Positions 6,001 to 28,469 of a stretch of 28,469 bases of DNA are shown here, piece after piece (positions within the stretch are counted from its first letter, which is position 1; the number at the start of each line of letters is the position of its first letter). The DNA is taken from the IMG/VR virus record IMGVR_UViG_3300043469_000535, positions 1-28,469 of that record, one strand, 5' to 3'. The position numbers were made by a program, and so were the translations under genes. A model generated the notes under the pieces. That model made no database searches, was not told the origin of the DNA, and saw only the letters and a program-made list of their open reading frames with translations. Source of the DNA: a virus.

Positions 6001-9000
6001 TCTTGTCTTGCTTCAATATTTTTAGTTGCTGGTTTCTCCACTTCCTTGTAATCTACTGTGATAATTGGTTGTATCATAGTAACATAAGTAGGATTTTTTC
6101 CAGTATCATCAATATTAAAAGATTTGATATTAGTAAGTAAATTATTTTTTAAATAATTGTCATAAGTTTGATTTAAAGGAGTAACTCCTTCTCTTGTAAT
6201 ATGAACTATACTTTTTACATTTCTGTTATTCAAAAGTTTGTTATTTGTATGCTGTGAAACATTATTCATAACATTTTCATCAAACAAACCTTTTTTGTAT
6301 TGACCTAAATTATCTCCAGCAATATTGTCTTGAAAATAAGTTTTTATAAATTGAACTATTTCATTTCCATTTTCAATATCAAGACCCATTTGAGTATGCA
6401 CATCTTTTTGAATAGATTTAGCTTTCTCATAAGTCATTTCATATATAGTACCTTTCAAGTGTCTTGTCCAACTTGCATCTTTTTTAAGAGCTAAATGAGC
6501 AGCCATAGCAAATCTTGCTGTTTCTATTTGTTCATTAGAAACAACTCTTCCTACAGGATAAGCTCTATATGTTGGTACTATTTCTCCTTTATCATTTAAT
6601 GTTGTACCTATTCTTCTTACTTCCCAAGTATGACCTACACTATTAAAATCAAATTTTCCTTCATTACCAGATTTATCTTTATTTAAGAGTTTTCCAGCAT
6701 TAAAAATTTGATTACCCATATATAAGTCCTCTCCAATTTGTACTGTTACAATTGTTTGAGGATTAGCTTCATTTAGTGTAATTTTTGGTTCTGTCATAGG
6801 TATTTCATAAAATATACCATCAGAAGGTTTATTTATTGTAACTTCTGTTAAACCATTAGCTATACTATTTCTTAAATTTTGAGCATTTAATTTACCTTCA
6901 TTAATATGATTTATCCATTCTTGAGTAGGTAAGTTAGGATTACTTGAATCTCCAAAAGGATTACCTATATTGAATGTATTATACCAATCAGTATCTTGAA
7001 CATAAGCTAATTCTTTACCTGCACTATTAGTATAGAACACAGGAACTTTATTCATAAATTCTTGTGTGTTTCTGAAATTAGGATTTTGTTTTTCTTTTTC
7101 AGATAACCATTTATCAAAAGTAGTTGTTTGAGCTGCTCCTTGTGCATTTCTACCATCAGAAACAGTAATTTGAGACCATAAAGATTCAGGAGCAATTTTT
7201 ACTCCTAATTTACTTCCAGAAGGATGCATATCAGGATGTAATAATTCTCTAAAATCAATTAAATCTCCAAACTTATGATTTAATTCATTACCTATTGTTT
7301 TTCTAACTAATATACCATTTTCAATTACTTCAACATAAGCAATAGAAGAGAATCCTAATTTAGGAGTAATTGTCAAAGTTCTTTTAGATTCAATTTCATT
7401 TACTGCTGTTTTTTGAATAGGAATATTTTCTTCATCATAACCAACAGTAGTAACCTCTCTTTGAGCAACTTCTTTTTTTATTTCTTCTACTTTTTCTTCT
7501 AATTCTACAAATGTATTAGCTTCTTCAATAGGAACTTGTTGTTCAAACATTTGAGCCATCAATGAAGCATTAGTACCCAATGAAGCTAAAGGATTAAATA
7601 AATCCATATAAACTTGATTATAGTCATCTGCTTCAAAATTGTTTTGTTTCCAACCTTCTACATAACCATCAAATAATTTCTTTAATTGTTCTTTGTTATT
7701 TACAATTTCATCTAAATGAGACATATATTCTCTAAAGCTAATATTTCTATTCAATAGATTTTTAACTTTATTAACATCTTCTAATACAATTTTTTTAGCA
7801 ACACTACTCTGTTGAGGTGTAAAAGATGATGTATTTCCAATCATATCATTGAAATCATCTGCGATAAATACAGGGTCATTGTTTATAGTTGTGGAATTAT
7901 CATCTAATGAAAAAACAGTTTCCATAGTTTGTAAATTACCAGCAACAGAAGAAGTATGTTCTTCTTTAGCATCTTCATCTACAATTGTAATATATGGCTC
8001 ATTTTCAGGAACAACTTCTCCAGCATCTATTTTCTCTTGTCTTTGAGCTAACAAGTCTTTTATAGATTTAGCTATTTTTTCTTTATGAACTTGTTCTTGC
8101 TTTACTTTAAGTTCTTGTAATTTTTGTTCTTTTAAATCATTAATAAAATCTTTATTTTCTCCAGTAATATCTTTTTGTTTAAGTTTTTCAACTATACTTT
8201 CAATTAAAACAGGAGTTTCTTGTAATTCATTTTGATAATTAAATTCTGCATTTTCAGAACCTTCTTGTTTTATTTGTTCTACAATAGAATTATAATCTTG
8301 TAAAATAGCTTTTTTCTCCTCCATTTTCTTTTGATATAGAGGATGAACTTGGTCATTATAATTTTTTAATAATATACTTTGATTACTATTCAAAGTATCT
8401 TTTAACATTGTAGCATTCTTATGATTTTCTACAGCTAATAGATTTTCTTTTTCTAATTTGTCTAAAAAAGAATTATATTTTTGTTGGTCTTCTTCATTTT
8501 CAAATTGTCTATCTAATAAAGTATCAATAGAATAATCTATTTTGATACCTTCTCTTGTTATAAAAGCATCTATCTCTTCTTTAGCATTTTGTTTATTTTC
8601 AACAATATGTTTATCTAATTCTTCAATAGTTTGTTTATTTGCTAATTTTTTTTCAGCTAAATTGAATATTGTTCCAAAATTTTGTTTCTCTGAATGTGCA
8701 TCATAAACTTGTTTTAGTTCATCTATTCTCTTTTTAGCAAGTTGTATATTTAATTTAGTTTCAGCAGATATTTCAGTATCAGGTTTTAATAACACTTTAT
8801 CCAATGTTTCTTGGAAATTAGTTATTGTTCCTGTTCTTATAGCATGAGCAGCTAATCTTTCAAATTTTGTTTTTTCTAATTTATTAGCTTGTTCAATTTT
8901 ACCATTATCTCTTAATTTAGTTATCATAGCATCATATTCCAATGGACTATATAAACTACCAGAGGTATTCATATTAATATGAGTAGCTAAATCTTCATCT

Positions 9001-11108
9001 GTTGTAGAAGCATCAATATCTCTATAAATTTTACTAATTGCTTTTTTATCTAATCTGAAATTGTTGGCTCTCATTCCCATACCAACACTACCCATAGCTC
9101 CATTCATTATAAGAGTTTGAGCTATAACATCTTCATAAAATTCTGAATCACTTAATTGTTCTAATTGTTTACCATAATCTTGACCATAAGTAGGTACTAA
9201 AGCAGTAAATACTTCTTCTAATACTTCTCCAGGTAATGAATCTAACATATTCATTTGTCCTGTATGAGCAATAGCTTGAGTAGATATTTTACCTAATGCT
9301 AAATTATTCATAGCATTTCTACCCTTTACAAATTTATCATTTATTACTGATAAACCTTTTCCTATCTTACTTTCAGATAATTTAGTTAAACCTCTACCTA
9401 ACATAGTAGATTCAGATTTAGCTAATTTACCTAATGGTCCAAGTGCTTCTCCAACAAATCTTTCAGCAAATGCTTCTTTTAAATATTCTGAATAACCAAA
9501 CAAAGCTGATTCAAATTTACTATGTGGTTGTATTAAAGATAATTCATCAGCTAAAGAATCTTTCATTCCTTGCAATTCTTCTATTTTAGCTAAATTTTCT
9601 TCTGTTTTATTTTTAGATAATTTGTTTATTTGACTATCTATTTGAACATTCTTTAAACTAAAGTCTTTTTTATATTTGTTATAGATTGCTTGACTTGTTA
9701 GATAAATTTCTTTACCATTTTCATCATGTGATATTTCTACATTACCAATTTGGTCTTTTGCATAACCACCATAAGTCATAGGATTAACAAGTCCTTGTAC
9801 AGCTAAACTTGCTGTTCCTCCTGCTAATTCTCCACCTATCATTTTTAAAGCAAGTTTCTTACCACCTTGTTGTAAAGCAGTATTAAGAGTTAATCCTATA
9901 GCATCTCTTGCAACAAATTTACCCACAGCAGTTTCTATAGGACCTCCTATTGGTGCAGTAGCTATCATTTGCTCCATCATAACAGCAGATGTAGCAACAC
10001 CTTTACCTGTTCTGTATAATCTATTATCATGCATTAAATCTCTTGCTTCAATATTTTGTTTTTTAGCAATAGATTCTATAACAGCTTGTTCACTATCAGT
10101 AAGTGTTTCAGAAGGAACATAACCTTTTTTTACATTACCATTTTTATCTGTATTCTTTGTTACTTCATTTATTATCCTATTTTGTTTTTCAATAATAGGA
10201 ATACTCTTAATATCTTTAGCTATACTATATAACCCTAATGATTTTAAGTCTTTACTTTGTGTACCAAATCCTGACCAAAATCCTGTATTACCAGTAGTAT
10301 AATCTTCTAAAGTTTCTATTACTTCTTCATAATTTTTTTTAGCAATATTATAATTTACCTCTTCTTGATATGGAGTATAATTATCTTCTGATGTATTTTT
10401 TTGATAACCAGTAAGTCTATCTGGAACAGATGCTTTTGGACCAACACTACCATCTTTATGATATACTATTTGTGCATCATCTTTTAATTTAGCATCTCTA
10501 TATTTTTTAGCTTTCTCTTCAATTTCTTTAAATCTATTTTTAAAACTTTCTTTAACTTCATTCATTACAGGCATAATTTTATTATCTCTGTATGTAATTA
10601 AATCATTGTATTCTTTTTCTTCTTTAGCTGTTTTACCCCATTTATTTTCATCATCAGCAAAATAATCATGTAATTTATAAATAGGAGCAAAAATATTAAC
10701 TCCATTATCATCAATGAAATCAATACTTTTCTTTCTTTTTTCTTTTATTTTTTCATCAATATCTAAAAATTCAATAGCTTTTTCTTCTCCTACCTTATTT
10801 TTTAATTCAGCAAGAACACCATTATCATCAAGAGTTTTAGCTTTAGCTAATTTTTCAGCTTCTTTTTTAGCTTTAGAATTGAAAAAATCTTCTGTTTCTC
10901 TTTCAGTAGAAGATTTATACATCATATCCAATGTACCAGCAGATACATTACCTAAACTCATATCTTGAGAGGTAAGCTCTTCTTGTGATACATTAGCAGT
11001 ATTATTTTGCTGATTATTAACTACTTGTGAAGAAAATGTTTTCTTTTTATTTTCTATACTTTGGTTTAAAAAATCTAAACTTGCACTCTTTCTTTTAGGT
11101 GGTAACAT
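1..11108 (-). CDS. Giant crAss-like virion RNA polymerase polyprotein (3' end beyond window)
   Basis: This frame starts at an ATG at 11108 (MLPPKRKSASLDFL) and stays open to the left edge, giving at least 3702 codons with no stop seen. It is a single-chain, multisubunit-type RNA polymerase of the crAss-like/YonO lineage, carried in the virion and injected to transcribe phage genes (family knowledge from Cellulophaga phage phi14:2 gp66). The decisive motif is DYDID at residues 3098-3102, the metal-binding DxDxD loop. It is preceded by a KMPGNGF segment (from about 2947) and an RTPTSSHKS...LPPEVGD..IVP block (about 3057-3088), both typical of the double-psi beta-barrel core. A Gly-rich GAIGKVAIGVYAN stretch follows near 3293. 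Residues about 365-446 are hydrophobic and Gly/Ala-rich, and about 780-1020 are Lys/Glu-rich and probably coiled coil. The roughly 2900 residues before the core have no function I can assign. The C-terminus is missing. Confidence 0.9.
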   Translation of the reverse strand, partial: MLPPKRKSASLDFLNQSIENKKKTFSSQVVNNQQNNTANVSQEELTSQDMSLGNVSAGTLDMMYKSSTERETEDFFNSKAKKEAEKLAKAKTLDDNGVLAELKNKVGEEKAIEFLDIDEKIKEKRKKSIDFIDDNGVNIFAPIYKLHDYFADDENKWGKTAKEEKEYNDLITYRDNKIMPVMNEVKESFKNRFKEIEEKAKKYRDAKLKDDAQIVYHKDGSVGPKASVPDRLTGYQKNTSEDNYTPYQEEVNYNIAKKNYEEVIETLEDYTTGNTGFWSGFGTQSKDLKSLGLYSIAKDIKSIPIIEKQNRIINEVTKNTDKNGNVKKGYVPSETLTDSEQAVIESIAKKQNIEARDLMHDNRLYRTGKGVATSAVMMEQMIATAPIGGPIETAVGKFVARDAIGLTLNTALQQGGKKLALKMIGGELAGGTASLAVQGLVNPMTYGGYAKDQIGNVEISHDENGKEIYLTSQAIYNKYKKDFSLKNVQIDSQINKLSKNKTEENLAKIEELQGMKDSLADELSLIQPHSKFESALFGYSEYLKEAFAERFVGEALGPLGKLAKSESTMLGRGLTKLSESKIGKGLSVINDKFVKGRNAMNNLALGKISTQAIAHTGQMNMLDSLPGEVLEEVFTALVPTYGQDYGKQLEQLSDSEFYEDVIAQTLIMNGAMGSVGMGMRANNFRLDKKAISKIYRDIDASTTDEDLATHINMNTSGSLYSPLEYDAMITKLRDNGKIEQANKLEKTKFERLAAHAIRTGTITNFQETLDKVLLKPDTEISAETKLNIQLAKKRIDELKQVYDAHSEKQNFGTIFNLAEKKLANKQTIEELDKHIVENKQNAKEEIDAFITREGIKIDYSIDTLLDRQFENEEDQQKYNSFLDKLEKENLLAVENHKNATMLKDTLNSNQSILLKNYNDQVHPLYQKKMEEKKAILQDYNSIVEQIKQEGSENAEFNYQNELQETPVLIESIVEKLKQKDITGENKDFINDLKEQKLQELKVKQEQVHKEKIAKSIKDLLAQRQEKIDAGEVVPENEPYITIVDEDAKEEHTSSVAGNLQTMETVFSLDDNSTTINNDPVFIADDFNDMIGNTSSFTPQQSSVAKKIVLEDVNKVKNLLNRNISFREYMSHLDEIVNNKEQLKKLFDGYVEGWKQNNFEADDYNQVYMDLFNPLASLGTNASLMAQMFEQQVPIEEANTFVELEEKVEEIKKEVAQREVTTVGYDEENIPIQKTAVNEIESKRTLTITPKLGFSSIAYVEVIENGILVRKTIGNELNHKFGDLIDFRELLHPDMHPSGSKLGVKIAPESLWSQITVSDGRNAQGAAQTTTFDKWLSEKEKQNPNFRNTQEFMNKVPVFYTNSAGKELAYVQDTDWYNTFNIGNPFGDSSNPNLPTQEWINHINEGKLNAQNLRNSIANGLTEVTINKPSDGIFYEIPMTEPKITLNEANPQTIVTVQIGEDLYMGNQIFNAGKLLNKDKSGNEGKFDFNSVGHTWEVRRIGTTLNDKGEIVPTYRAYPVGRVVSNEQIETARFAMAAHLALKKDASWTRHLKGTIYEMTYEKAKSIQKDVHTQMGLDIENGNEIVQFIKTYFQDNIAGDNLGQYKKGLFDENVMNNVSQHTNNKLLNNRNVKSIVHITREGVTPLNQTYDNYLKNNLLTNIKSFNIDDTGKNPTYVTMIQPIITVDYKEVEKPATKNIEARQEAAATVVEQLKTSVPFNLEKHTEFLNDLGIDPNDFDESNDMIANTDKLANIFNVSGDLSITQEKNVRQFIYHKIGNKVSFGYKNKISKEAIQNDIKSELNLHLNKIEKQVLSMLSEIKNQDNTNGALNHYETIYNKAFADIQKQTQLTLNEKEESDIEQDDVELSVKDYSKDSIEESGKAKASYRLRRFLSEIPVFDSKGVAQKGYLGIPLYMSFNDVYNELSKVLALGSEVKSDYNTIIAKMKQSNNAFVKSVLAKLENADQQIKNELVYNFVRHTLSSKFAMYENTKNNGVSLKIYNTNANEATRIIAKNWKNENKSSGLYNKNQSLNVQYAQSLLDEFNKWDRQDYRKVPENDLRKWLSKIGYTFEDTSWNQIYNEGIFNAGKQNSFNVLYSQNAGGLFIPLKNWLEKAIVNPADFSFDSKESVFNDLAGVTKALSLIEAKYNPTLITLSFRDSGKNISTLVPTKYVTDMVQNLKRSISEDGNNLVDDLLSLSLSENSIILDMLKNEPTFKSMFEISHTSITAFKEKGEQPYRASITDLSDIDYDMAGITGFQDRKIDKLPKGTKFEGISMRMANMLFPTMSDKTTGMYMTTAIFDFLKDGKIDGMFNLTEEGVVQGIGPTVKTLLFNQLVLPELKRIIKFHTEVKATNIKDYDKGATLFHFLPIMNTLKDEDGLNIVNKLALTGITIDEAIEKYQSTFEDAIEGVIKKEVEHKKGMWSNYLEVNKEGNSYSKMFDNNYFKEEGKNPSTDYDLAVYDFVLNNMITNSEVFKVFAGDIANYSKDKLYKEEGKSVNPFDIKDDKTYVSINKEIGVNLGKRLALLIAPGSKIANSYGEKYNQIFLEDSIDISENSEYLIKNYYGKKGLDEAQPLLDKYKKAAEILNKHEQGILSLNSVRYNAINKTLSDIRKSLANKFPAIDAYFDIESTDAQEYSTATEHISILHRIGRISDEEFKVITNKLLTEGEKGYLTKEELKLVFQPIKPVHTGTYTNINQDVNRVVYIKSSAFPLIPQLTAGTKLDALRLKMEELETNTGRFTRASFQTANKVGATIKTVKPFDTNSLSTIKNYNADDINTNMLVLNRDNFRIQQDVPFKSDKHQDDKVSMGTQFFKLLFGDGVIDKEGFTIDGKELTGKELYQHFNKAFSDIVDSKKQELFLDLGLDTNGQIKNEQNFVKNLQDLLIKEATSRGYSVKSLAGLKIEKLAAAAGFYYEFKTPLWLSSDSNRYESLLNSIITNKIMKHKMPGNGFVAGSESGFRMKENLEGVDKSRIIYLDSYNGKELQGTHTSTDENGIVFHKAQVFIPSKFKNDKKELIDLFEGFNGKEGKYLTRRENGTLTLKEGMIDPALFNNFSFRTPTSSHKSGSSIEIAGILPPEVGDLMIVPKNFTKQKGLDYDIDKESAYQLNHIMTNDGKIKVLENSDIEDITRSLTNKIEEFNLENTSASAKSNFANELFRSFIAGKGSLLDEESLETLLLPQVDIVEKINRLELQLKRKLAENEFIKSHLAIFNNPNLDIQNKINSVLSIDFAKSQAEQLEKLNEAGYRNKMIAKYMAKDATLSDLKANEMYEADQLNFTMLTNSYQKSKMNLGAIGKVAIGVYANYSTFNALLQQHQGEDIYIQDDLGNPKTIQIGHFISDGKLGAIQHIEPTGLSESKLKEWREKHQRNISEAFDEKINTGTDNEKEQVLGRVGVDEFTINVDANTALRGFGKDENGNSISYLLLSQPIIKELNQRRKESKGVLGEFINDKKLINDLIESYGANSEFVFELGTGMVSEGTDKNQGALGKTSDTSALTGTKMLEGIENNGKDRAMQLLALDVYLTLEEEAKKVAKVQKVINTNTLGKSMIESQLKYEGLKKLPDNGVITNAHLLIGDYSDTSENQSGGYMIGNYYVTPRTPQGQIVINGLHLGNTLYRDFFPYQDKSINDVVKEILKIQGKEENISDNAIIENFEEIVENIKKLIYSRKGNNVFNIDPKAKRYELFIDDENNTSLSTYLKD
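1803..1817 (-). other. RNA polymerase catalytic DxDxD loop
   Basis: The codons GAT TAT GAT ATT GAT read in frame with the ATG at 11108 (9291 bases apart, divisible by three) and give D3098-Y-D3100-I-D3102, followed by Lys-Glu. In crAss-like polymerases and all cellular RNA polymerases, the three aspartates of this loop hold the catalytic magnesium. The preceding context, LPPEVGDLMIVP about 20 residues upstream, is also typical for the family. The loop is intact, so an active enzyme is expected. Confidence 0.88.
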
Positions 11109-15172: not shown

Positions 15173-15178
15173 TTACTA
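15173..15178 (-). other. Tandem stop codons TAG-TAA ending the muzzle gene
   Basis: After the final Glu-Arg codons the muzzle gene reads TAG and immediately in frame TAA. Every other gene whose end lies in the window stops at TAA. If TAG were read through, as in some crAss-like lineages, the protein would gain one residue only. Confidence 0.9.
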
Positions 15179-18100
15179 TCTTTCAGATACTTTTGAATCC
15201 TGTACAGAGAAGTTCATAATTAATCTTGTGGTGTCAAAGGTATCAAATATCAATCTAACCACCAAGAATTTATCTCTAAAACTTTCCATTTCAGTCCAAT
15301 CTTTATTATAGTCAATTCTATTACTATTAACTATTTTATCTATAAAATAATCTGCTTGTAAACTTGTTAAGTTTTTATTGAATATAGATACATTAGGATT
15401 TACAGACAAATCTCTTAAATCATTAATGCACCAATCTCTTTCATTTCTATCAAGATTAATAAATCCTGCTGAATTTTCTACTTGATTGTTCATATATTCT
15501 AAATCAACATCTTTTACCAGCATATCAAGAATACCACTTATTTGATGGGTATTATAAGCCATCACTTTATTAAAAGTTATATATCTTTTATCAACATAAC
15601 TATCTGTAGCAATATCATACTGTTTTGCTTCTGTTTGAAATTTGATTGCATCATATATTTTACTAATCAAAGCATTTGAATTATCAACATACTCTATTAT
15701 AAAAGGATGTCTTTCTCCATAGAAATTCTGATAATGATTCTTTCTACCATGTCTCCAAATATTTGATAAACCTTCTCTCCAAGAATAAAACTTCTCTTGA
15801 ACATGCATATAGAAACTTGGTAAATATGAATGCCAAGAAATCCATTTTGTATCTTTCAATGAATAACTCATTGTAAAACTATTGTTTAATAAATTAGTTT
15901 CTAATGGAATACCATTCTCATATTCATAAGTCATTACTGGTACTTGTACTTCTACTTCAACTTGTGTTGTTGTAGTTAAACTTCCAAGAAAACCATTTAT
16001 ATCGGTAGCAAATTGTAAAGGAGTAATTATATCTCCAGTACCATCCCAACCCCTTGTATGTTTATATTGCCAATTTCTTTGACTTAAACCTGATGGATAT
16101 GGATTTACTCCTGCTAATGCTGTTAATAATAAAGCATAATCTCCTGTTGGAACAAAAGGATTAATATTAGCTGTTAAAAAAGCTAATTCCGTTGCATTTA
16201 ATGTTCTACCTGTAATAGCAGATATACTATGTTGTAACATACCTCTTGTAGGACCAGGAATACTTGTATAAACAATAGGGTATTGTAATCCATGAATACT
16301 ATATCCAGCAGCAATTAATGCATCATATCTTGTATTGTAATCATTAAAATCATTAATATATTCTGTAGAAGGAGCATCTGTAGGATTACTAATACCACTT
16401 GTATGATATTCCCCAGTACCTCCACAATTATTAATAGCTGCTTCATTTACAGTAGAAACTATGATTATGTTTCTACTTATAGTATTAAAATTAGTTATTG
16501 GTGTTTCTACACCAACTAAAGGATTTGCTGAATTATCTACTAAAAATATTTGCTGACTGTTTTGTAACCATCTTAATACACTCAACCATGCTTGACCACT
16601 ACATCTTTCAACAGCTAAAACATAAATCAATCTTCCTGTAAATGTTGGATTATCAATTTTAAATTGAGTAAACCAAGCTAATACAGCTACTTTGACATTA
16701 GCAACTCCTGCATTACCAAAACTACCAGACCTATCAAACTGTATAACTATATCACTATTATTAGGAACATTAGTAGTTATTGTTCTTATTTCTATTCTTG
16801 TTTCTATTACTGTTTTTTCAAATTTTAATTTACAATTCTCTACACCAATATAATTCCAACCATTAGCTAATCTATTAGCAATAATTTGAGACAAGTTAGG
16901 AAATATTACTGTTCCTAAACCTTCATTGCATAATTGATAATCTCCATCAGGTAAACCAGCAATATCAAAATCTTTTTTAGTTATAATCAATCTTTCTTTT
17001 TTAGTATCATAAGTAGATATATAACCAACACCAATAGGATTTGATGGATTATTATTATATGGATAATTAATATGATTAGCATTATAATAACTTTCAGCCA
17101 TTCTAAATTTCATATTTTCTCTAAAATAATTAGAGTTGTATGTATCAGAAATTGGTTGAAGAGATTGCCCATTAAACAAGTACCATTTTTTCTCTTTATG
17201 ACAAGGAAACAATACTCCATTTTTTGTTTTCAATCTACCCCATTTATGAGTATTACCAGAAGAACTATTATTATCATCAACAATTTTTCTTGGTGGTATA
17301 TTAAAATATTCTCCTGTTCCAATGAAAGAAATGATATTATCTGTTACTCTTTCTTGAAAATTTTGTGGTTGATGCCATAATGCTTCTTCTGTATGAATAT
17401 AAAGATTATTTTGTATTCTGAATAAATCAGTTATTACTCCTGTTTCTCCTTCAATATCTTTATAATTGTTTGGTAAAAAGTTTCTAAAATTATCTGTTAA
17501 TTCTTCTTGAAATGCTTGTTGAGACCAATGTAGTCTATGAGGAAAAGTTTCAGTACAATCTGAACAGCAATCATATTCTAATGGTAAATGGTTATATATT
17601 TTTTCTTTGTTTCTTCTTTTATAATCTTGATTGATTTGATATATTTCAGCTAATGCTAATCCTATATATGATTTACCTCCTTTTCTACCACTATTTAAAT
17701 AAGTTAATTTTTTAACCATGTGAATATCTAAAGAATTTGTAGGAGCAATTTCTCTTGAACCAACTGAATGTATTCCAAAGTATTCTTCATCCCATTCTCC
17801 ATAAGAAGTTCCTAATTCTCTATTACCAGGAGCATTAAGAAAGTCAGGTGTATTATCAGTAGCACCTTGTCTTAAATTCATATTTACATTAGATTCAAAC
17901 CATAAATTTAAACATTCTCCTAACCATTGAATTTCATCATCTGGTGGATTTTTAGCAAAACCTCTTTGTTCTCCATTATTAGGGTCTGAATCATATAGAA
18001 TATAATTATCTACTATTGTTTCTCTTAAACCTTTATCATATAAATCACTATATGCTCTTGCCCAAGCATCTTGTTTTATACCAGAAGCTACAAGTGCTGC

Positions 18101-21061
18101 TGCTCCACCTACCATAGCTGCTGCTACACCAATTAAAGCTATACTTCCTGCTGTTCCTGCTCCCCAAGTAAAGATAGCAATTACTACAGCAACTATAACA
18201 AGTAATCCTGCTACTATATAATTCCATACAGAAGTTTTAGCAGCTCTTTTTCTTAATCTATTATTATAAAATATACTATTTGTATATCTCAAAGGTGTTA
18301 TATAACTATCCCCATTAAATACATCACATTTTGATTCTGTGGAAGTAAAATATATAGGATTTTTTGTTTCTTTGTAATAAGGTGTTAATCTAAAATTATT
18401 ATATGGATTAGCATTATCTTTTATCAAATACACATAAGGTACATCATTTACAATAGGAAAGGTAATATTTTCATTTAATGACATTATACCTACTTTGTTA
18501 TCACAACCAAGATTAAATACATCTACACCTACATCATTTGAATCCTGTATTAATTTATCTCCTAAAGCTGGTAAATAAAATATTTCTTTGATTTTTGAAG
18601 CATCAATTTCAAAAGAATTTTTATTTGCAAAATCAGTAATATTATCTCTTGTTTTTATTTGTAATAGAAATCCATCAGGACCATTATTACCATTACCTTG
18701 AAATCTACCATTTTCAGCATCTTTCATACCACTTTGATATGAATTACCATCTTGAACATCAATGATTTTTGTTCTACTATGAATAGCTTCATGTCTTGTA
18801 AAACTACCTTGTTGAATTATTTTAGTTACATTTTTATATTTTTTATCATTGAATTTAAACTCTGGATTAATTAAACTTACTATATCTTTTTTAACTCTTG
18901 CATCATTACTCAATTCTGGCATCAATAAACCAGAAGATACAAATTGTGCATTTTGTATAGTTGAAGTTAAAACTGCACTATCTAATATAGTTTTTTCATC
19001 TTCAATTCTTTCATTTCTTACAATGTAATAACCTACTATTTTATTACCATTTAATTCCAATTCAGAAGGAATTTCTATATTAGAAAAATGAATACCAAAA
19101 ATATCAGAAGTAAATTGTTCATCTTTAGTTTCAACTACATCATTTGATAATGATATTGTATAAGTTAAATTTCTACCTGGTTTTATAGTACCTGTAGGTA
19201 ATCCTGTTGTAGGACTTAATAAATCTCCATTTGTAGAAGTAGCTGTAAAAACTCCTCCTGAAAGTGTACCAGTAATTCTTAATATATCTCCATTCTCTTG
19301 ACTTTCATCAAGAGTTATAAAAGTTACTAATGCAGCAACTATTATATTAGAATAATCATTTTCAGATATTATATATGAAGGATTACTACTTGCATAATCA
19401 GAAGGTCTAACTTGTCCTATAAATTCATTTAATTCTGTTGCACCATCTTTAGTATAATTAATTTTATACTGAAATGTATTAGCAACTATAGGTACACAAG
19501 CTGGGTCATATCCTGGTTCATCTTCTAATGGACAAGTTGTAGGTGTAGGAATACTTCCTGCAATATTTACCTTTATTCTTTTAAATACATTTGTTGTTGA
19601 GTTTGAGCTAATTCTTTCTATTAATGGTATATTAACATCTGTTCTTAATGGAAATCTATGATGTCTTACTAATTGACCTGTTAATTGTGTACCTTCTGAA
19701 TCTACTCCCCAATAATTAATTCCTCCACAACTATCATTATCAGTATATTCATTATCAGCACTTGTGTTATTAAGTGCCATAGGATATATGTTTTGACCAG
19801 CATCAAATATAGTATCTGCTGCAATCAAATTGCTTTTTCCTGGTATATGATAAACAGGAGTTAAAGTATTATCATCAAATATATATACAATACCAAAAGA
19901 ATATATTTCTCCTGGCATGTAACCTAATCCTTCTAAATTAACAGAAGCATGTTTACTATTACCCTCTATTAAGTTATTTAAAGCTACTTTTTTTGTAACC
20001 ATATCAGCACAGATTTTACTGGCATATTTTTGTAGATTACATAAATTTACTTCTTTACCTTTTACATTTCCTAATAATAATGTATTTTCTACTTGTTCAA
20101 TACTTTCTGCTTTCTCTATAATATTTTTAAATACTAATACATCTGATTGTGTACCAGAAGATTCAAAATTATTTCCTGTATATGTAAACACATTATTTTG
20201 AGTAGAAATTTCTTGTGTAAATTTAGTATCAGTAATTTGTCCTGTACCACCTGTAGCTTCTGTAATAGCTAATCTATAGAAAGGAAAAGTTTCATCTAAA
20301 TTAGATAATACTACTTTTATAGCTTTATCTGACCTTCCAAAATTTTGATATTCTGTTACTGTATTTGTAGAACCTCTTATATCTTTAAAAGGTAATGTAA
20401 AATCACTATTATATACTTGAACTGTTTCACTACTTGTTATAAATTCTGTAGGATTCAAATCCTCATCTAAATATTGAATAGAAAAATTATAACTGCCTGA
20501 TAATAAGTTACCTCCATTATTTAATACTTCAATTTCATCAAAATTAGGTATTGTTTTATAAATTTTAAATAAATTGAATTTTGAAATATCCCAATCTCCT
20601 GTATTATTATCTTGAAACTTTTCTGGTTTTTCTAATATAAATATTCTTGGTTTAGGGTCAATCCAATATATAACTCTTTCACAACCTTTTCTCAATCTAA
20701 AAGTTGCATCAATTTGCTGACTTATTTTAAATCCAAATTTTTCAGTTTGATTTACATCACTTACTTGAATAGAAAAATTACATTCTCTATCAACTATTGC
20801 TAACATTGAATCACCATTAGTTGAACATAAAAACAATAATGTTTCATCATTACCAATATAAACTTTACCTATTGGTGTAAAACCTTGAGGTATAGGATAA
20901 CATGGTTCATTAGATTCTTCATTAGCAATGAAACCTTTATCTCCTTCAACTGTTTCATTTACTCCATTTAAAACAAATGTAGTTGCTCCTTGAGGTTGAT
21001 TTACATAAGAGGTATCTGTACTTAATCCTCCAGGTTGAATTACTGTATTATTATCTCGCAT
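15176..21061 (-). CDS. Muzzle / tail stabilisation protein, 1961 aa, with vWA-like insertion
   Basis: The N-terminus (GGLSTDTSYVNQPQGATTF, then EGDKGFIANEESNEPC and IPQGFTPIGKVYIG, residues 12-70) followed by FRLRKGCERVIYWIDPKPR is characteristic of the large crAss-like tail stabilisation protein, the muzzle that closes the tail tip (P22 gp10-like in earlier annotation). Residues about 944-993 are strongly hydrophobic and Gly/Ala-rich, enough for two membrane helices. A Cys cluster (YDCCSDCTE) lies near 1161. Residues about 1425-1700 appear to be an inserted vWA-like domain. The last 250 residues resume typical muzzle sequence (TKWISWHSYLPSFYMHVQEK). As I recall relatives, 1961 aa is long, and the insertion explains much of it. 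The start overlaps the preceding gp4-like gene by 11 bases. It ends in tandem stops, TAG then TAA. Confidence 0.88.
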   Translation of the reverse strand: MRDNNTVIQPGGLSTDTSYVNQPQGATTFVLNGVNETVEGDKGFIANEESNEPCYPIPQGFTPIGKVYIGNDETLLFLCSTNGDSMLAIVDRECNFSIQVSDVNQTEKFGFKISQQIDATFRLRKGCERVIYWIDPKPRIFILEKPEKFQDNNTGDWDISKFNLFKIYKTIPNFDEIEVLNNGGNLLSGSYNFSIQYLDEDLNPTEFITSSETVQVYNSDFTLPFKDIRGSTNTVTEYQNFGRSDKAIKVVLSNLDETFPFYRLAITEATGGTGQITDTKFTQEISTQNNVFTYTGNNFESSGTQSDVLVFKNIIEKAESIEQVENTLLLGNVKGKEVNLCNLQKYASKICADMVTKKVALNNLIEGNSKHASVNLEGLGYMPGEIYSFGIVYIFDDNTLTPVYHIPGKSNLIAADTIFDAGQNIYPMALNNTSADNEYTDNDSCGGINYWGVDSEGTQLTGQLVRHHRFPLRTDVNIPLIERISSNSTTNVFKRIKVNIAGSIPTPTTCPLEDEPGYDPACVPIVANTFQYKINYTKDGATELNEFIGQVRPSDYASSNPSYIISENDYSNIIVAALVTFITLDESQENGDILRITGTLSGGVFTATSTNGDLLSPTTGLPTGTIKPGRNLTYTISLSNDVVETKDEQFTSDIFGIHFSNIEIPSELELNGNKIVGYYIVRNERIEDEKTILDSAVLTSTIQNAQFVSSGLLMPELSNDARVKKDIVSLINPEFKFNDKKYKNVTKIIQQGSFTRHEAIHSRTKIIDVQDGNSYQSGMKDAENGRFQGNGNNGPDGFLLQIKTRDNITDFANKNSFEIDASKIKEIFYLPALGDKLIQDSNDVGVDVFNLGCDNKVGIMSLNENITFPIVNDVPYVYLIKDNANPYNNFRLTPYYKETKNPIYFTSTESKCDVFNGDSYITPLRYTNSIFYNNRLRKRAAKTSVWNYIVAGLLVIVAVVIAIFTWGAGTAGSIALIGVAAAMVGGAAALVASGIKQDAWARAYSDLYDKGLRETIVDNYILYDSDPNNGEQRGFAKNPPDDEIQWLGECLNLWFESNVNMNLRQGATDNTPDFLNAPGNRELGTSYGEWDEEYFGIHSVGSREIAPTNSLDIHMVKKLTYLNSGRKGGKSYIGLALAEIYQINQDYKRRNKEKIYNHLPLEYDCCSDCTETFPHRLHWSQQAFQEELTDNFRNFLPNNYKDIEGETGVITDLFRIQNNLYIHTEEALWHQPQNFQERVTDNIISFIGTGEYFNIPPRKIVDDNNSSSGNTHKWGRLKTKNGVLFPCHKEKKWYLFNGQSLQPISDTYNSNYFRENMKFRMAESYYNANHINYPYNNNPSNPIGVGYISTYDTKKERLIITKKDFDIAGLPDGDYQLCNEGLGTVIFPNLSQIIANRLANGWNYIGVENCKLKFEKTVIETRIEIRTITTNVPNNSDIVIQFDRSGSFGNAGVANVKVAVLAWFTQFKIDNPTFTGRLIYVLAVERCSGQAWLSVLRWLQNSQQIFLVDNSANPLVGVETPITNFNTISRNIIIVSTVNEAAINNCGGTGEYHTSGISNPTDAPSTEYINDFNDYNTRYDALIAAGYSIHGLQYPIVYTSIPGPTRGMLQHSISAITGRTLNATELAFLTANINPFVPTGDYALLLTALAGVNPYPSGLSQRNWQYKHTRGWDGTGDIITPLQFATDINGFLGSLTTTTQVEVEVQVPVMTYEYENGIPLETNLLNNSFTMSYSLKDTKWISWHSYLPSFYMHVQEKFYSWREGLSNIWRHGRKNHYQNFYGERHPFIIEYVDNSNALISKIYDAIKFQTEAKQYDIATDSYVDKRYITFNKVMAYNTHQISGILDMLVKDVDLEYMNNQVENSAGFINLDRNERDWCINDLRDLSVNPNVSIFNKNLTSLQADYFIDKIVNSNRIDYNKDWTEMESFRDKFLVVRLIFDTFDTTRLIMNFSVQDSKVSER
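15960..16790 (-). other. vWA-like domain inserted in the muzzle protein
   Basis: This covers residues about 1425-1700 of the muzzle protein. A hydrophobic strand (SDIVIQF) leads into D1443-R-S-G-S, the DxSGS first motif of the metal-ion-dependent adhesion site of von Willebrand factor A domains. It is followed by a helix (VKVAVLAWFTQF), a strand (RLIYVLAV), a strand (RNIIIVSTV) and later helical segments ending in FATDINGFLGSL, an order compatible with the vWA Rossmann fold. The flanks are alternating beta-type sequence (IETRIEIRTITT before, TQVEVEVQVPVMT after), as expected at a loop insertion. The second (Thr) and third (Asp) metal-site motifs are not obvious. The boundaries are approximate. 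Confidence 0.65.
18083..18232 (-). other. Hydrophobic double-helix segment in the muzzle protein
   Basis: Residues about 944-993 read VWNYIVAGLLVIVAVVIAIF, then a Gly-Ala turn, then IALIGVAAAMVGGAAALVASG. It is a hairpin of two potential membrane helices in an otherwise soluble beta-rich protein. It is preceded by a basic patch (RKRAAK). In a tail-tip protein this could be buried in the closed tail and released to engage the host membrane on opening; that role is inferred. Confidence 0.6.
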
Positions 21062-22019
21062 AGTTTGTTATTTTTCTTGAACCATTAAATGTTCTATTTT
21101 CAGCAGTACCTAATTTACCAAAGAAACCATAATATCTATTATGATTAGGAATCAAATAATTTGATTGTTCCATTAAATTTTGATATTGGTCCACACCTGT
21201 AGGCATTTTAGCTTTATTTTTAAACTGCTTAATATATTTTAACCAATGTTGTTCAGCTATTTGAGCAAGTTGCATAGCACCTTCTCTATGATTCCATGCT
21301 TCTGTTTCTTTTACTTTCCAACCAAGATAATAAGTAATAGCTGCTCTTGCTGATTCATCATCAGGTATCATTGGATAACCAGTTTCAGAATCAATCATTT
21401 GTCTAATATATGCTAAAGCTATAAGACCACTTTTAAAATTAAATCTCAATTGGTCTTGTACTATTGTATATTCATCTCTATCATCACAATCTCTACAATA
21501 CACATCTTCCATATCCTTTTCTTTACAAACTAATGTATTTAAAAAAGAATGATTAGCTAATCTTACAGGAGTATATTTAGTTTTTTTATATGTTGAACCA
21601 ATCCAATTTTGAAAAGATAATGGTAAATTTAATTCCACTACATATTGAGATTGTTCTTCATCCCATGTAACTGAAACTTGTTCATTTGATAAATGTTTAG
21701 GTTGTTCATTACAACAATTAATTTCTGTTTCAATTTGAGCAATAGTATTAGATGCACAACTATTTGTGTCTTCTGGTTTTTCCCAATCATTATTTCTTGC
21801 TATTTGAGTTATATAATGAAGACCAGGTGGTATAGAAGCATGATAGTTTTTTACTTCAATGAAAGCAATAGCTTCTTCTGATGCACTAACTATTTTCATA
21901 AAACCTAATGCTTCTCCTATCCATTCAATAGCATCATCTTCATTTATATCAAGACCTTTAAAATCTCTTTGAAATTTAGCAAGGATTGAATCTATTTTTA
22001 CAAACTGAAATTTTTGCAT
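21051..22019 (-). CDS. P22 gp4-like tail tubular / tail hub protein, 322 aa
   Basis: The C-terminal half carries the signature I recognise from crAss-like gp4-type proteins: FKSGLIALAYIRQM, GYPMIPDDESARAAITYYLG, then WKVKETEAWNHREGAMQLAQ and HWLKYIKQFKNKAKMP (residues about 196-273). The N-terminal part has IDSILAKFQRDFKGLDINED and AIEWIGEALGFM, a helical opening also typical. In P22-like tails gp4 joins the portal to the rest of the tail; in crAss-like virions the homologue is part of the tail barrel/hub. Six Cys are present, including C102-C103 and the YCRDCDD pair (C175, C178). It starts one base after the 93-aa gene and its end overlaps the muzzle start by 11 bases, so the two products are probably made together. 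Confidence 0.82.
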   Translation of the reverse strand: MQKFQFVKIDSILAKFQRDFKGLDINEDDAIEWIGEALGFMKIVSASEEAIAFIEVKNYHASIPPGLHYITQIARNNDWEKPEDTNSCASNTIAQIETEINCCNEQPKHLSNEQVSVTWDEEQSQYVVELNLPLSFQNWIGSTYKKTKYTPVRLANHSFLNTLVCKEKDMEDVYCRDCDDRDEYTIVQDQLRFNFKSGLIALAYIRQMIDSETGYPMIPDDESARAAITYYLGWKVKETEAWNHREGAMQLAQIAEQHWLKYIKQFKNKAKMPTGVDQYQNLMEQSNYLIPNHNRYYGFFGKLGTAENRTFNGSRKITNYAR

Positions 22020-24816: not shown

Positions 24817-25329
24817 TTATTTTAAAACTTTACTTGTAACTTGTGATTTGATTATAAAATGTGTAGCTATTGGTACAATTCCAATCCATTCAGCTACTAA
24901 TAAACTAAACAGATTAAATACAAAATGTAATGTAAGTCCAATTAGAACTATTCCTGATACAAAATATTTAAAACTTCTGAATGCAATATTAGAACTTAAT
25001 CCAATTGATAAAATACTACCAATAAAAAATATACTTGCAAATATATAATGAAAAAAGGAATAATCCAAATGAGGAGTTAAAGTAACACCAAATAATGATA
25101 TACCTAATATACCATTATACCAATGTCTTTTATAACCAACTCCATTGTATAGAAACATTGAACCAGCTAATGTTAATAAGAAAGCAAATAAATAATTAAA
25201 TTCACTATAAGCATAATCACTTATACTTGGTCTCCAACTACCATCAAATAATCTTAATATTATTGGAATAAATATTAATAAAAAAGCTACTAATACTTCT
25301 AATCTTTTAACATCTTTTGTATTTTCCAT
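24817..25329 (-). CDS. Multi-spanning membrane protein, 170 aa
   Basis: Most of the protein is membrane: hydrophobic helices at about 10-28, 46-64, 70-88, 92-111, 121-141 and 142-160, with short polar loops (GSWRPSISDYAYS, YKRHWYN) and a basic C-terminus (KSQVTSKVLK). The pattern WRPSISDY...YN...TPHLDYSFFHYIFA recalls DUF998-like six-helix proteins, but I cannot name the family with confidence. Its ATG overlaps the stop of the upstream gene (TAATG), so translation is coupled, and the holin follows 7 bases later. Position suggests a lysis accessory protein such as a second holin, antiholin or membrane-remodelling factor. It could instead alter the host envelope, for example to exclude superinfecting phage. 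The function is not established. Confidence 0.72.
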   Translation of the reverse strand: MENTKDVKRLEVLVAFLLIFIPIILRLFDGSWRPSISDYAYSEFNYLFAFLLTLAGSMFLYNGVGYKRHWYNGILGISLFGVTLTPHLDYSFFHYIFASIFFIGSILSIGLSSNIAFRSFKYFVSGIVLIGLTLHFVFNLFSLLVAEWIGIVPIATHFIIKSQVTSKVLK

Positions 25330-25922
25330 TACACAATTTGATTTAAGATTGAATCTTTAACAGTTACATTATCAGGTAATTTAGCATTTAATATTGCTAA
25401 TATTTGTTCATTGGTTTCTGACTTAATTGCATTTTCAAATTCTTTTGAACCATTTTCAATATAATTATTTAGGAAATTTAAAGTTTTTCCACTAATTACT
25501 CTTGCAGAATAAAATCCAAACAACATATCAATATATTGTTTAATACCCAATCTTGTACCTGCTTCTTGTAAATAGTTAATTTGTCTTTTTCTTCTACTTC
25601 TAATTTCTTCTGATGCACTTGAAATAGGTAATGAATTAGTAACAGTTTTAAACAAAGCAGGATTTCCCATTTCATCTAACCATTCTATTTTCATATTAAT
25701 ACCTATAAGAAATCCATTGTTATCTAAAACATCTGTATAAGTTTGTCTAACTACCACATTATCTTTTTCATCAGAATAAAATTCTGTTTTAATCTTTACA
25801 CCTTTAACAAATTCTGGGTCTCCTTTAGTAATACCATTTAATACTTCTACTGGAGTAGCCATTATTTCTTCTGGATGTTTGGTTTCTAACCAAGGATTAT
25901 GTTTAAATATTTTTAGTTTCAT
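25329..25922 (-). CDS. Conserved crAss-like structural-block protein, 197 aa
   Basis: The N-terminal half contains IFKHNPWLETKHPEEIMATP and PVEVLNGITKGDPEFVKGVK, then a beta-rich part with VVRQTYTDVLDNNGFLIGIN and IEWLDEMGNPALFKT. I recall closely similar stretches in a conserved protein of crAss-like phages encoded beside the tail genes, with no assigned function. The C-terminal half is helical and basic (SEEIRSRRKRQINYLQEAG), ending in NAKLPDNVTVKDSILNQI. There is no membrane segment or cysteine. It starts 4 bases after the 280-aa gene and its stop overlaps the start of the membrane protein (TAATG). A minor virion or assembly role is inferred from neighbours. Confidence 0.7.
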   Translation of the reverse strand: MKLKIFKHNPWLETKHPEEIMATPVEVLNGITKGDPEFVKGVKIKTEFYSDEKDNVVVRQTYTDVLDNNGFLIGINMKIEWLDEMGNPALFKTVTNSLPISSASEEIRSRRKRQINYLQEAGTRLGIKQYIDMLFGFYSARVISGKTLNFLNNYIENGSKEFENAIKSETNEQILAILNAKLPDNVTVKDSILNQIV

Positions 25923-25926
25923 ATTA

Positions 25927-26769
25927 TTAAATATTAGAAATTACTATTTTAAAATTTCTTGTTCCATACCCATTTTGTATTTGTCCTATCCAGTTATTTG
26001 TATTTGAATAGTTATTCCCTGCATAAGCATAACCTGTTCCTAACAAATTATTATTACCATCATTAGTAAATAATTGTAATTTAATACCTTGTGATTGATT
26101 TGTCATATCTAAACCTCCCCAATAAGGATAAGTATAATCCCAATTTTGAAAAGGAATAACAGTTAATACTTTACCATTAGTTGCCACTTCATCAGATAGT
26201 CCAGCATTTTGTGCTTCCATTCTAATTTTAGGAAGTACAGATGTATTATTTTCAATTGTGATATTATATGGTTGTGCTTGTATTAAATCATTACCATAAT
26301 TTTCTATACCAACTTGAAAATAAGCATCTACTGCAAAGTTTCCTATTAGAGTATCTTTAGTAATATTCTTAAATAACTTACCAACTCCATATATGTTATC
26401 AACTTGAGTATATATTCTTAAATACTTACCATTAGGTAAGTTTAAGTTCATATCTTCTTTTGTTTTAATTTGTAGAGGGTATTCAGAATTTAGATAAAAT
26501 TTAGCTTCTGTACTATTTGTGCTTCTTAATACAATAGTTTCAGTATTATTAATTAATAAAGGTACACTTGGAACAATTCCATTACCATTATTATATCTAT
26601 ATATTCTAATAAATCCTCCTGTAATATTACCAATAGCATTAGCTATTTGTTTAGCTTGACTATTTGTTAAATTGTCAAAACCAACTTTGATTCTGCTAAT
26701 TAAGTTTTTTAAATACCTTAATTGTTTCTGACTGAAATCAGAATTTTTTATTTCACTATCTAATCCCAT
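25927..26769 (-). CDS. Putative virion protein, 280 aa, helical N-terminus and beta-rich C-terminus
   Basis: I do not recognise a family. The first 55 residues are helical and charged (SQKQLRYLKNLISRIKVGFD, NSQAKQIANAIGNI), followed by short beta-type segments through the remainder, with many Asn, Tyr, Gly and Thr (GYAYAGNNYSNTNNW), as in phage fibre, spike or head-decoration proteins. Residues about 107-125 (LPNGKYLRIYTQVDNIYG) suggest a beta-sandwich. There is no signal peptide, membrane helix or cysteine. It lies 7 bases after the 160-aa gene and 4 bases before the 197-aa gene, downstream of the fibre-like gene. A helical attachment region plus a displayed beta domain would fit a fibre-type virion protein; this is inference from composition. 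Confidence 0.65.
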   Translation of the reverse strand: MGLDSEIKNSDFSQKQLRYLKNLISRIKVGFDNLTNSQAKQIANAIGNITGGFIRIYRYNNGNGIVPSVPLLINNTETIVLRSTNSTEAKFYLNSEYPLQIKTKEDMNLNLPNGKYLRIYTQVDNIYGVGKLFKNITKDTLIGNFAVDAYFQVGIENYGNDLIQAQPYNITIENNTSVLPKIRMEAQNAGLSDEVATNGKVLTVIPFQNWDYTYPYWGGLDMTNQSQGIKLQLFTNDGNNNLLGTGYAYAGNNYSNTNNWIGQIQNGYGTRNFKIVISNI

Positions 26770-26776
26770 AATAATA

Positions 26777-27259
26777 TTATTTTAAAATTTGCCAATCTTC
26801 AATTTTACTAAAATACATTCCTTTATCTTTTCCAGAAATACCTTGTTGGCATTCTAATTGTATGATAATTAATAAACCTTTTTGAAATAATTCATTAATG
26901 TTTTGCAAAGTTAATGAATTATCTGAAAAATCCACATTTAATTGTATAGATAATTCTTTTAATTGTGCATAAGTGTATTTTTTTAATCTTGTATTAGTTC
27001 CAAGTATTTTAATTACCTCTACATCTTCATAATCTTCTTCTTTTGGTTCTATTAAATTTATAGGTTTTTCAGGTGTTATTTGTAAAATATAATCTTTTTT
27101 AAGTTGTTTTTCTATTACCTTGTCAAAACAAGTATCTATAATTCTTAATTCATAAACTTCTTCACTTGGTTTGTTTTGAATTAAATCTATTTCCATTTTT
27201 ACATACCCTACATTTGCAGGTGGAAACTGTAATTTTTTATTTGATTGTATTGCTATCAT
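26777..27259 (-). CDS. Putative structural protein, 160 aa
   Basis: No family is recognised. The first 50 residues look like a beta-sandwich (NKKLQFPPANVGYVKMEIDL, then EEVYELRIIDTCFD). An acidic stretch follows (PKEEDYEDVEVIKILG), then a helical part (YTYAQLKELSIQLNVDF, LQNINELFQKGLLIIIQLEC). It has two cysteines and no membrane helix. It lies 6 bases after the fibre-like gene and 7 before the 280-aa gene, so it is expressed with them and may be a small fibre-associated or assembly protein. The open frame, tight spacing and one-strand layout support it as a real gene; the role is unknown. Confidence 0.62.
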   Translation of the reverse strand: MIAIQSNKKLQFPPANVGYVKMEIDLIQNKPSEEVYELRIIDTCFDKVIEKQLKKDYILQITPEKPINLIEPKEEDYEDVEVIKILGTNTRLKKYTYAQLKELSIQLNVDFSDNSLTLQNINELFQKGLLIIIQLECQQGISGKDKGMYFSKIEDWQILK

Positions 27260-27265
27260 AATTTT

Positions 27266-28469
27266 TTAATTTACTTGGTAACTTATATTTAGGTTAAATT
27301 GTGAATCTCCTGTTGGAACATTTCCTGATATTAATCCAGAACTTGATGGATAAATATAAACTTCTCCACTATCTATAAATCTTGCTAAATAAACACCATG
27401 ATACCCATTCATTGTAGTTCTAATTTCAGATTGTACCATATTGTGTCTAAAACCAACAGGTAATGTACAAAGAATTACATAGCCACTTCCAGCTAAAGCA
27501 GTTGTTAATTCTGTAAAACTTATATATCTATTGAAGTTAAAAGTTACTTGCTTTCCTGTTTTTATTACTTTAATAGCATCATTTTTATTAAAACCATCAT
27601 TTAGATTTAAAATAGTTTGAGTTATTGAAGCTGATGATTTATCTTCAACTCCAAAAGTTCCATCTGGTTTAGCTACTACTTGTTTTGTAAATGTAGAATC
27701 TCCTTGTGCATTTGTTAAATTTGATAATTTAAAAGTAAAACCAGCAGTATTAATTTCTGTATTTTTATATAGAACACCCCCTAATTCTGTCTTATTATTA
27801 GCCGTTGTTATTCCATTTATACCTTGTAAATACCAAAAAGTCATTCTGTTACCATTTCTATCTCTATAATAATGATTTAGATTACTTGGGTCATAGAAAA
27901 AAGCAGGTGCATTACTTATGTTTGGAGGAAGTCCTATTGATATAGAAGTTGCAGCAGGTATGTTATTATTATTCCAATTATCTATATCATTTTGTTCTAT
28001 TGAAGCAGCAGGAGATGCTGTAAAAACAGGGTCTTCTTCTTGTGTTAATAATGAATCAACAAAAGAATCTTTAAGTTTTAATGTGCTGGTATTAGGTTCA
28101 ACTACTGAATTTACAAATTCTAATTGTTGATTATATACAAGAATATTTTTTACATTTGGTGTAATAACTTGTATTCCATTATCTGCTAATGGATTATCTG
28201 TTGAACCAGTAATTAAAGTAGGTTGTATGATTTCTATAAAATCATTTACTGTAATAGGTACTCCTGAATCTCCCCATGTTCCTTTACCTAATTTGAATAA
28301 GTATTGAATTTTATGAATTTGTTCATCAGGTGATAAAGTAAAAATATAATTTTCATCATTATTAACAATAAAACCATTTGTATCATTTATAACACTTACT
28401 AATTGTTCTAATGGTGTACCACTATAATCACTACCTAATTCTACATTTATGAATTTATTATTTTGTTTA
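27266..28469 (-). CDS. Fibre / receptor-binding-type protein, C-terminal 400 aa (5' end beyond window)
   Basis: The frame is open from the stop at 27266 to the right edge. The ATG at 27844 is internal: the codons before it continue in phase (FYDPSNLNHYYRDRNGNR, then MTFWYLQGINGI), so the gene is at least 400 codons long. The upstream part has repeated beta-type segments and Asn/Pro-rich linkers (for example TASPAASIEQNDIDNWNNNN). The last 75 residues resemble the beta-jellyroll tip of phage fibres: a short strand, a proline turn with GFRHNMVQSEIR, then VYLARFIDSGEVYIYP and a closing GDSQFNLNISYQVN. I infer a tail or head fibre that may touch the host surface. There are no collagen-like repeats. 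The missing N-terminus prevents deciding where on the virion it attaches. Confidence 0.7.
   Translation of the reverse strand, partial: KQNNKFINVELGSDYSGTPLEQLVSVINDTNGFIVNNDENYIFTLSPDEQIHKIQYLFKLGKGTWGDSGVPITVNDFIEIIQPTLITGSTDNPLADNGIQVITPNVKNILVYNQQLEFVNSVVEPNTSTLKLKDSFVDSLLTQEEDPVFTASPAASIEQNDIDNWNNNNIPAATSISIGLPPNISNAPAFFYDPSNLNHYYRDRNGNRMTFWYLQGINGITTANNKTELGGVLYKNTEINTAGFTFKLSNLTNAQGDSTFTKQVVAKPDGTFGVEDKSSASITQTILNLNDGFNKNDAIKVIKTGKQVTFNFNRYISFTELTTALAGSGYVILCTLPVGFRHNMVQSEIRTTMNGYHGVYLARFIDSGEVYIYPSSSGLISGNVPTGDSQFNLNISYQVN

Follow-up and report, generated by a model that had tools for sequence, protein, structure and literature searches.

The 28,469-nucleotide stretch of viral DNA analysed here, positions 1 to 28,469 of IMG/VR record IMGVR_UViG_3300043469_000535 (hereafter the window), carries on its minus strand the gene for a crAss-like muzzle protein of 1961 amino acids (15176..21061). 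The identity of this open reading frame (ORF) follows from its matches to the Pfam families crAss_MUZ (PF25731; E 9.8e-37, 127.1 bits) and crAss_MUZ_C (PF25729; E 2.2e-10, 41.2 bits), each with a curated cut-off of 27, and from the adjoining CrAss_Ring_1 at 21051-22019; the predicted structure of its scaffold also matches the muzzle of phicrAss001. CrAss_Ring_2 is found further upstream, and the order of ring protein R1 and then muzzle is that of crAss-like tail regions. The closest named phage is Flavobacterium phage FpV4, with a muzzle that is 94% identical across the full protein. Our subject is a segment of this muzzle, residues 1422-1707 (15941..16798, minus strand), comprising a von Willebrand factor A (vWA)-like domain and the ends of a stalk. 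A first-pass annotation had marked 15960-16790, equivalent to residues ~1425-1701 of the muzzle protein, as a vWA-like domain with a DxSGS motif, inserted into the muzzle and unlike the sequence on either side.

Alignment with related muzzles agreed with the segment being foreign to the muzzle core. Residues ~1422-1707 are missing from the muzzles of FpV21, FPSV-S29 and Leptolyngbya phage Lbo-JY46; the first two have a different segment of ~90 residues at the cassette site, and Lbo-JY46 has none. For a wider comparison, we collected 80 IMG/VR muzzle loci with the C-terminal flank and took the site to run from the conserved TKKD strand to the (N/D)xSWTxSY strand. In most of these loci the interval was just about 42-76 residues long, a short hairpin in place of the segment, in line with a clean insertion. 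Neither of the two outcomes named as speaking against the first-pass annotation was observed: the segment is not part of the muzzle core, and the predicted fold, described next, has a Rossmann sheet. The motif itself was found as first described, at D1443-R-S-G-S1447 (16721..16735, minus strand).

An AlphaFold2 (AF2) model of the cassette, built from an alignment of eight homologous sequences, had a mean predicted local distance difference test score (pLDDT) of 82.8 and a predicted template modeling score (pTM) of 0.84. It showed a Rossmann-like vWA fold over residues ~1437-1694 (15980..16753, minus strand), bearing out in prediction both the proposed domain type and the proposed strand ending in D1443: the strand (16-22 in model numbering) is followed by a helix (29-49), which places DRSGS on the β1-α1 loop. 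In a VIA-align comparison, the top match was the von Willebrand factor (vWF) A1 domain (Z 10.0, 164 aa, root mean square deviation [rmsd] 4.0), and the 50 matches listed were all vWA or I domains, or proteins containing one. The cassette thus shares with vWF A1 and the integrin I domains the overall fold (Z up to 10.0) and the position of DxSGS on the β1-α1 loop, while the identity over aligned residues is ~12%. When a profile of eight cassettes was searched against the PDB, the sole matches were I domains of integrin alpha-M (E ~1), and these aligned at the DxSGS stretch. With Escherichia coli YfbK, the hhalign alignment fell precisely on the strand and loop of DxSGS, but its E value of 0.055 (0.4 for ElaD, which is unrelated) is no more than suggestive. 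A DxSxS motif by itself was rejected as evidence for a vWA domain, as it is expected 0.56 times in a shuffled muzzle protein and arises in 44% of shuffles; DxSGS is expected 0.04 times. We consider DRSGS to be above chance because the segment is absent from the aligned relatives, DxSGS is kept in 10 of 12 homologous cassettes, most of which share just ~20-36% identity, and AF2 places the motif on the β1-α1 loop. As far as prediction can settle it, the segment has vWA topology, and the assignment is based on the predicted fold and the place of the motif since the sequence alone would not settle the fold.

To place the domain on the muzzle, we used a larger AF2 model covering residues 1110-1961 (pLDDT 81.7, pTM 0.59). 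The scaffold of this model matched residues 1024-1371 of the phicrAss001 muzzle (7qol_P) with a Z score of 17.4 and 21% identity, and the insert separately matched vWF A1 (Z 9.8). The vWA domain is borne on two strands of ~20 residues, an ascending strand of residues 1411-1430 (16772..16831; E302-321 of the larger model) and a descending strand of residues 1697-1716 (15914..15973; E588-607), both encoded, like the features that follow, on the minus strand. Before the stalk come two propeller blade strands, GYISTYD and RLIITKKD (residues 1345-1363; 16973..17029), which we designate A and B from a Kelch-like pattern, and then a small β-β-α-β unit (residues 1375-1408; 16838..16939; E266-269, E276-279, H281-290, E294-299), to which a similar sequence is found in FpV21. 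After the stalk come the putative strands C and D, SFTMSYSL and WISWHS (residues 1729-1744; 15830..15877). From the Kelch-like strand pattern we infer that the insertion point is the B-C hairpin of a late propeller blade. The B-C and D-A connections share one face, and from the strand order the domain is probably on the distal face of the muzzle.

The insertion site aligns to approximately residue 1201 of phicrAss001 gp44 (PDB 7qok/7qol), within 'VYFTYKD/HCLCYSEL'. The two muzzles have in common the scaffold that follows IG2 and the neighbouring R1 ring gene, whereas the stalk and the vWA domain of the window are replaced in gp44 by nothing more than a tight turn at ~1201. IG2 ends at residue 1021 in gp44 (PMC10172136), and because ~1201 lies past this end, the site belongs to the propeller part, outside the crass and IG2 insertion zones. 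The mapping thus rejected the crass and IG2 tip domains as its location, and the site differs from the published muzzle insertions, which were placed in the crass and IG2 regions (PMC10172136). The insertion into the muzzle described in the first-pass annotation held, but the domain is predicted to sit on a stalk in a β-propeller hairpin rather than in a tip domain.

The long cassettes belong to Flavobacterium-type phages. Those that are vWA-like were identified in the window, in L019, L020, L024, L025, L028 and L029, in Cellulophaga phage phi4:1 (L014), and also in L101, L103 and L105. Unrelated long cassettes occupy the same site in the Flavobacterium-type phages FpV21, L021, L022, L023 and L027; Pfam named none of the non-vWA cassettes. 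A mosaic was seen in a metagenomic phage represented by one contig (L012/L028), in which the flanks of the cassette have 93% DNA identity to FpV21 (167/180 upstream, 223/240 downstream), while the cassette itself is a vWA domain with 68% protein identity to that of the window and is unrelated to that of FpV21. On a scaffold tree of 26 muzzles computed with the cassette left out, in which the long-branch sequences L014 and L053 are unsurely placed, the vWA state changes at least seven times, and well-supported branches make every one of these changes necessary; with shuffled labels the average is 8.6, close to the observed 7. Because of the L012/L028 mosaic and these state changes, we conclude from the aligned sequences that the vWA segment is an exchangeable cassette, swapped independently of the muzzle scaffold.

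The muzzles of FpV4 and Fpv3 carry the same cassette as the window (96.8% identity) in a protein 94% identical, but are annotated merely as structural proteins, and the cassette is not described in their records. Between the window and FpV4, the synonymous divergence (dS) of the cassette is 0.15 in comparison with 0.32-0.35 in three large surrounding blocks (P value 4e-5 for the synonymous difference, Fisher test), and the cassette is the stretch of 286 codons with the fewest synonymous changes in the whole gene. The ratio of nonsynonymous to synonymous divergence (dN/dS) is 0.10. These values fit a recent exchange and purifying selection. The remote homologue in phi4:1 gp042, recorded as a virion protein by tandem mass spectrometry, is at the same site with 25% identity. 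At L036:4408-6690, outside the Flavobacterium-type group, we observed an unrelated insert of ~250 residues at the same site; it resembles a β-sandwich lectin-like domain by eye, and Pfam names nothing in it. An 843-aa protein at L108:7692-10223 (also in L109 and L110), without PHROG or phage-record match, contains a DTSGSY domain whose ERW and L-N-E motifs resemble those found in the cassettes, and the domain type thus occurs outside muzzles too. No relative of the cassette was found in 85,000 bacterial and archaeal species genomes with narrow search patterns, and the cassette may still have a cellular source.

We consider it fairly probable that the exchangeable segment serves in adhesion, as a vWA fold that is held out on a two-stranded stalk of ~20 residues and that would bind a ligand on the host surface. 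Given a hexameric muzzle like that of phicrAss001, six copies of the domain would hang from its distal side, the part of the muzzle proposed to contact the cell surface (Bayfield et al. 2023, PMC10172136). A ligand on the surface of the flavobacterial host would be bound by the top face of the domain, at the DxSGS loop and perhaps with the help of a metal ion, and this contact would position the muzzle and may help to trigger its opening. Exchange of the cassette would alter the ligand bound, allowing replacement as hosts or host surfaces change. A Foldseek search with the larger model listed the vWA-tipped pilus adhesins GBS104 and SpaC among its matches. In these proteins a vWA domain forms the tip of a surface appendage, and the muzzle cassette is probably distal too; unlike the cassette, they belong to covalently anchored bacterial pili, and the match is weak, with high rmsd and no shared scaffold.

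Several observations weigh against the adhesion reading. The comparison with Pfam VWA profiles proposed in the first-pass annotation gave no match to the window domain at E ≤ 10, and nothing exceeded the threshold, the best match among the cassettes being one member at E 0.12. PF13519 was not found in the window, and Pfam and PDB sequence searches with the single domain gave nothing useful. Foldseek against the PDB with the domain alone returned mostly vWA entries, at weak E values (best 2.8e-3). In an alignment of 12 cassettes, loop 2 shows no conserved Thr but in many of them an ERW-like motif, and loop 3 of the window (N1539-E1540 after β4; 16442..16447, minus strand) has Asn in place of the canonical Asp. 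The segment between α2 and β4 varies in length by 27 residues across the cassettes, though it is expected to face away from the ligand side. Finally, a single host strain is on record for both FpV4 and FpV21 despite their differing cassettes, and the cassette alone therefore does not dictate the host strain.

The loop residues bear on the metal site of a metal-ion-dependent adhesion site (MIDAS) domain. Loop 3 is Asn-Glu in the DxSGS cassettes (Asn-Asn in L020), and since it lacks the Asp and loop 2 lacks a conserved Thr, the site is, on the aligned residues, noncanonical and the cassette not a canonical MIDAS domain. The motif that the first-pass annotation linked to a metal ion is present as the DxSGS loop, but the integrin-type MIDAS is incomplete at loops 2 and 3, which together with the phage virion context sets the cassette apart from vWF A1 and the integrin I domains. 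Loop 1 is DTTSM instead of DxSGS in two of the 12 cassettes, those of L025 and phi4:1, and these two, only two cases, are also the ones with Asp-Glu at loop 3. A paired change in the metal site is possible. The lengths of the loops after the β strands have ranges of 5, 6, 11 and 15 across the cassettes, whereas the α1-β2 and α-β5 loops are nearly constant (ranges 1 and 0). The idea that the ligand-side loops alone vary was weakened, as the α2-β4 segment and the 229-260 stretch vary too, and as support for a ligand-binding face the loop lengths are mixed. We propose more tentatively, as a claim that might well fail, that in flavobacterial crAss-like phages integrin-like vWA domains, swapped as cassettes on a muzzle-propeller stalk, bind the primary or a secondary receptor, and that their metal site is an unusual one that pairs DxSGS with Asn-Glu or DTTSM with Asp-Glu.

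The segment could instead be some other Rossmann-like domain with a coincidental DRSGS. The lack of a significant VWA sequence match and the chance expectation for DxSxS would allow this, but the listed VIA-align matches and the motif's place on the β1-α1 loop, together with the vWA result repeated in the larger model, make it very improbable. If the domain is a vWA, it could serve as a metal-dependent latch or a sensor of force, in which contacts among the vWA domains, or between them and the crass domain, would keep the muzzle shut until a change in metal or force. Domains of this type do change shape on ligand or metal binding, but the metal site here is incomplete, and close relatives have unrelated cassettes or a short hairpin in the domain's place. 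Gating therefore cannot depend on the vWA domain in general, and given the frequent exchange or absence of the segment we regard a latch as unlikely, and less likely than receptor contact.

Protein-protein docking is a common role of vWA domains, and the domain could be a platform by which a tail fibre or some other protein of the virion attaches to the muzzle. In favour of docking, the upstream tail-fibre region of the window differs from that of FpV4; the cassette was exchanged on its own in L012/L028, however, and the fibres of phicrAss001 dock on the R1/R2 hubs, not on the muzzle (PMC10172136), and we give docking as little weight as the latch. It is about as doubtful, perhaps a shade more so, that the domain is surface decoration without specific ligand on a hairpin that tolerates inserts, serving to shield the phage, to adhere weakly to mucus or particles, or to evade defences at the host surface. 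In some relatives the site is nearly empty, as decoration would permit, but purifying selection (the dN/dS against FpV4) and the conservation of motifs across such divergent cassettes speak against it.

Elsewhere in the window, 29 amino-acid changes relative to FpV4 cluster in 150 codons of the muzzle gene, residues 501-650 (19112-19561), probably within the part corresponding to the IG2/crass region. The ORF at 3-11108 encodes at least 3702 aa of a virion structural protein according to PHROG 16227, with no Pfam match; its counterpart in FpV4 has 4287 aa. At 25329-28468, upstream of holin and exonuclease genes, the genes are not of the same sizes as their positional counterparts in FpV4 and have no PHROG match except for the last, which weakly matches a tail fibre; for these reasons, this phage seems to have had its tail-fibre region replaced.

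Variation of muzzle length via insertions in the crass and IG2 regions has already been described (Bayfield et al. 2023, PMC10172136), whereas the site, fold and exchange of the cassette were not found in the literature searched. We found no paper on a vWA domain in crAss-like phages, preprints and subscription journals being outside the search. Host recognition by crAss-like phages is poorly known, and it is the muzzle that has been proposed to make contact and to act as the gate. Because FpV4 and phi4:1 are in culture, their portable, stalked domain offers a concrete object for binding assays and cryogenic electron microscopy, and the natural cassette swaps are ready-made comparisons. If the adhesion reading is true, the vWA adhesion fold would be used at the tail tip by a virus of bacteria.
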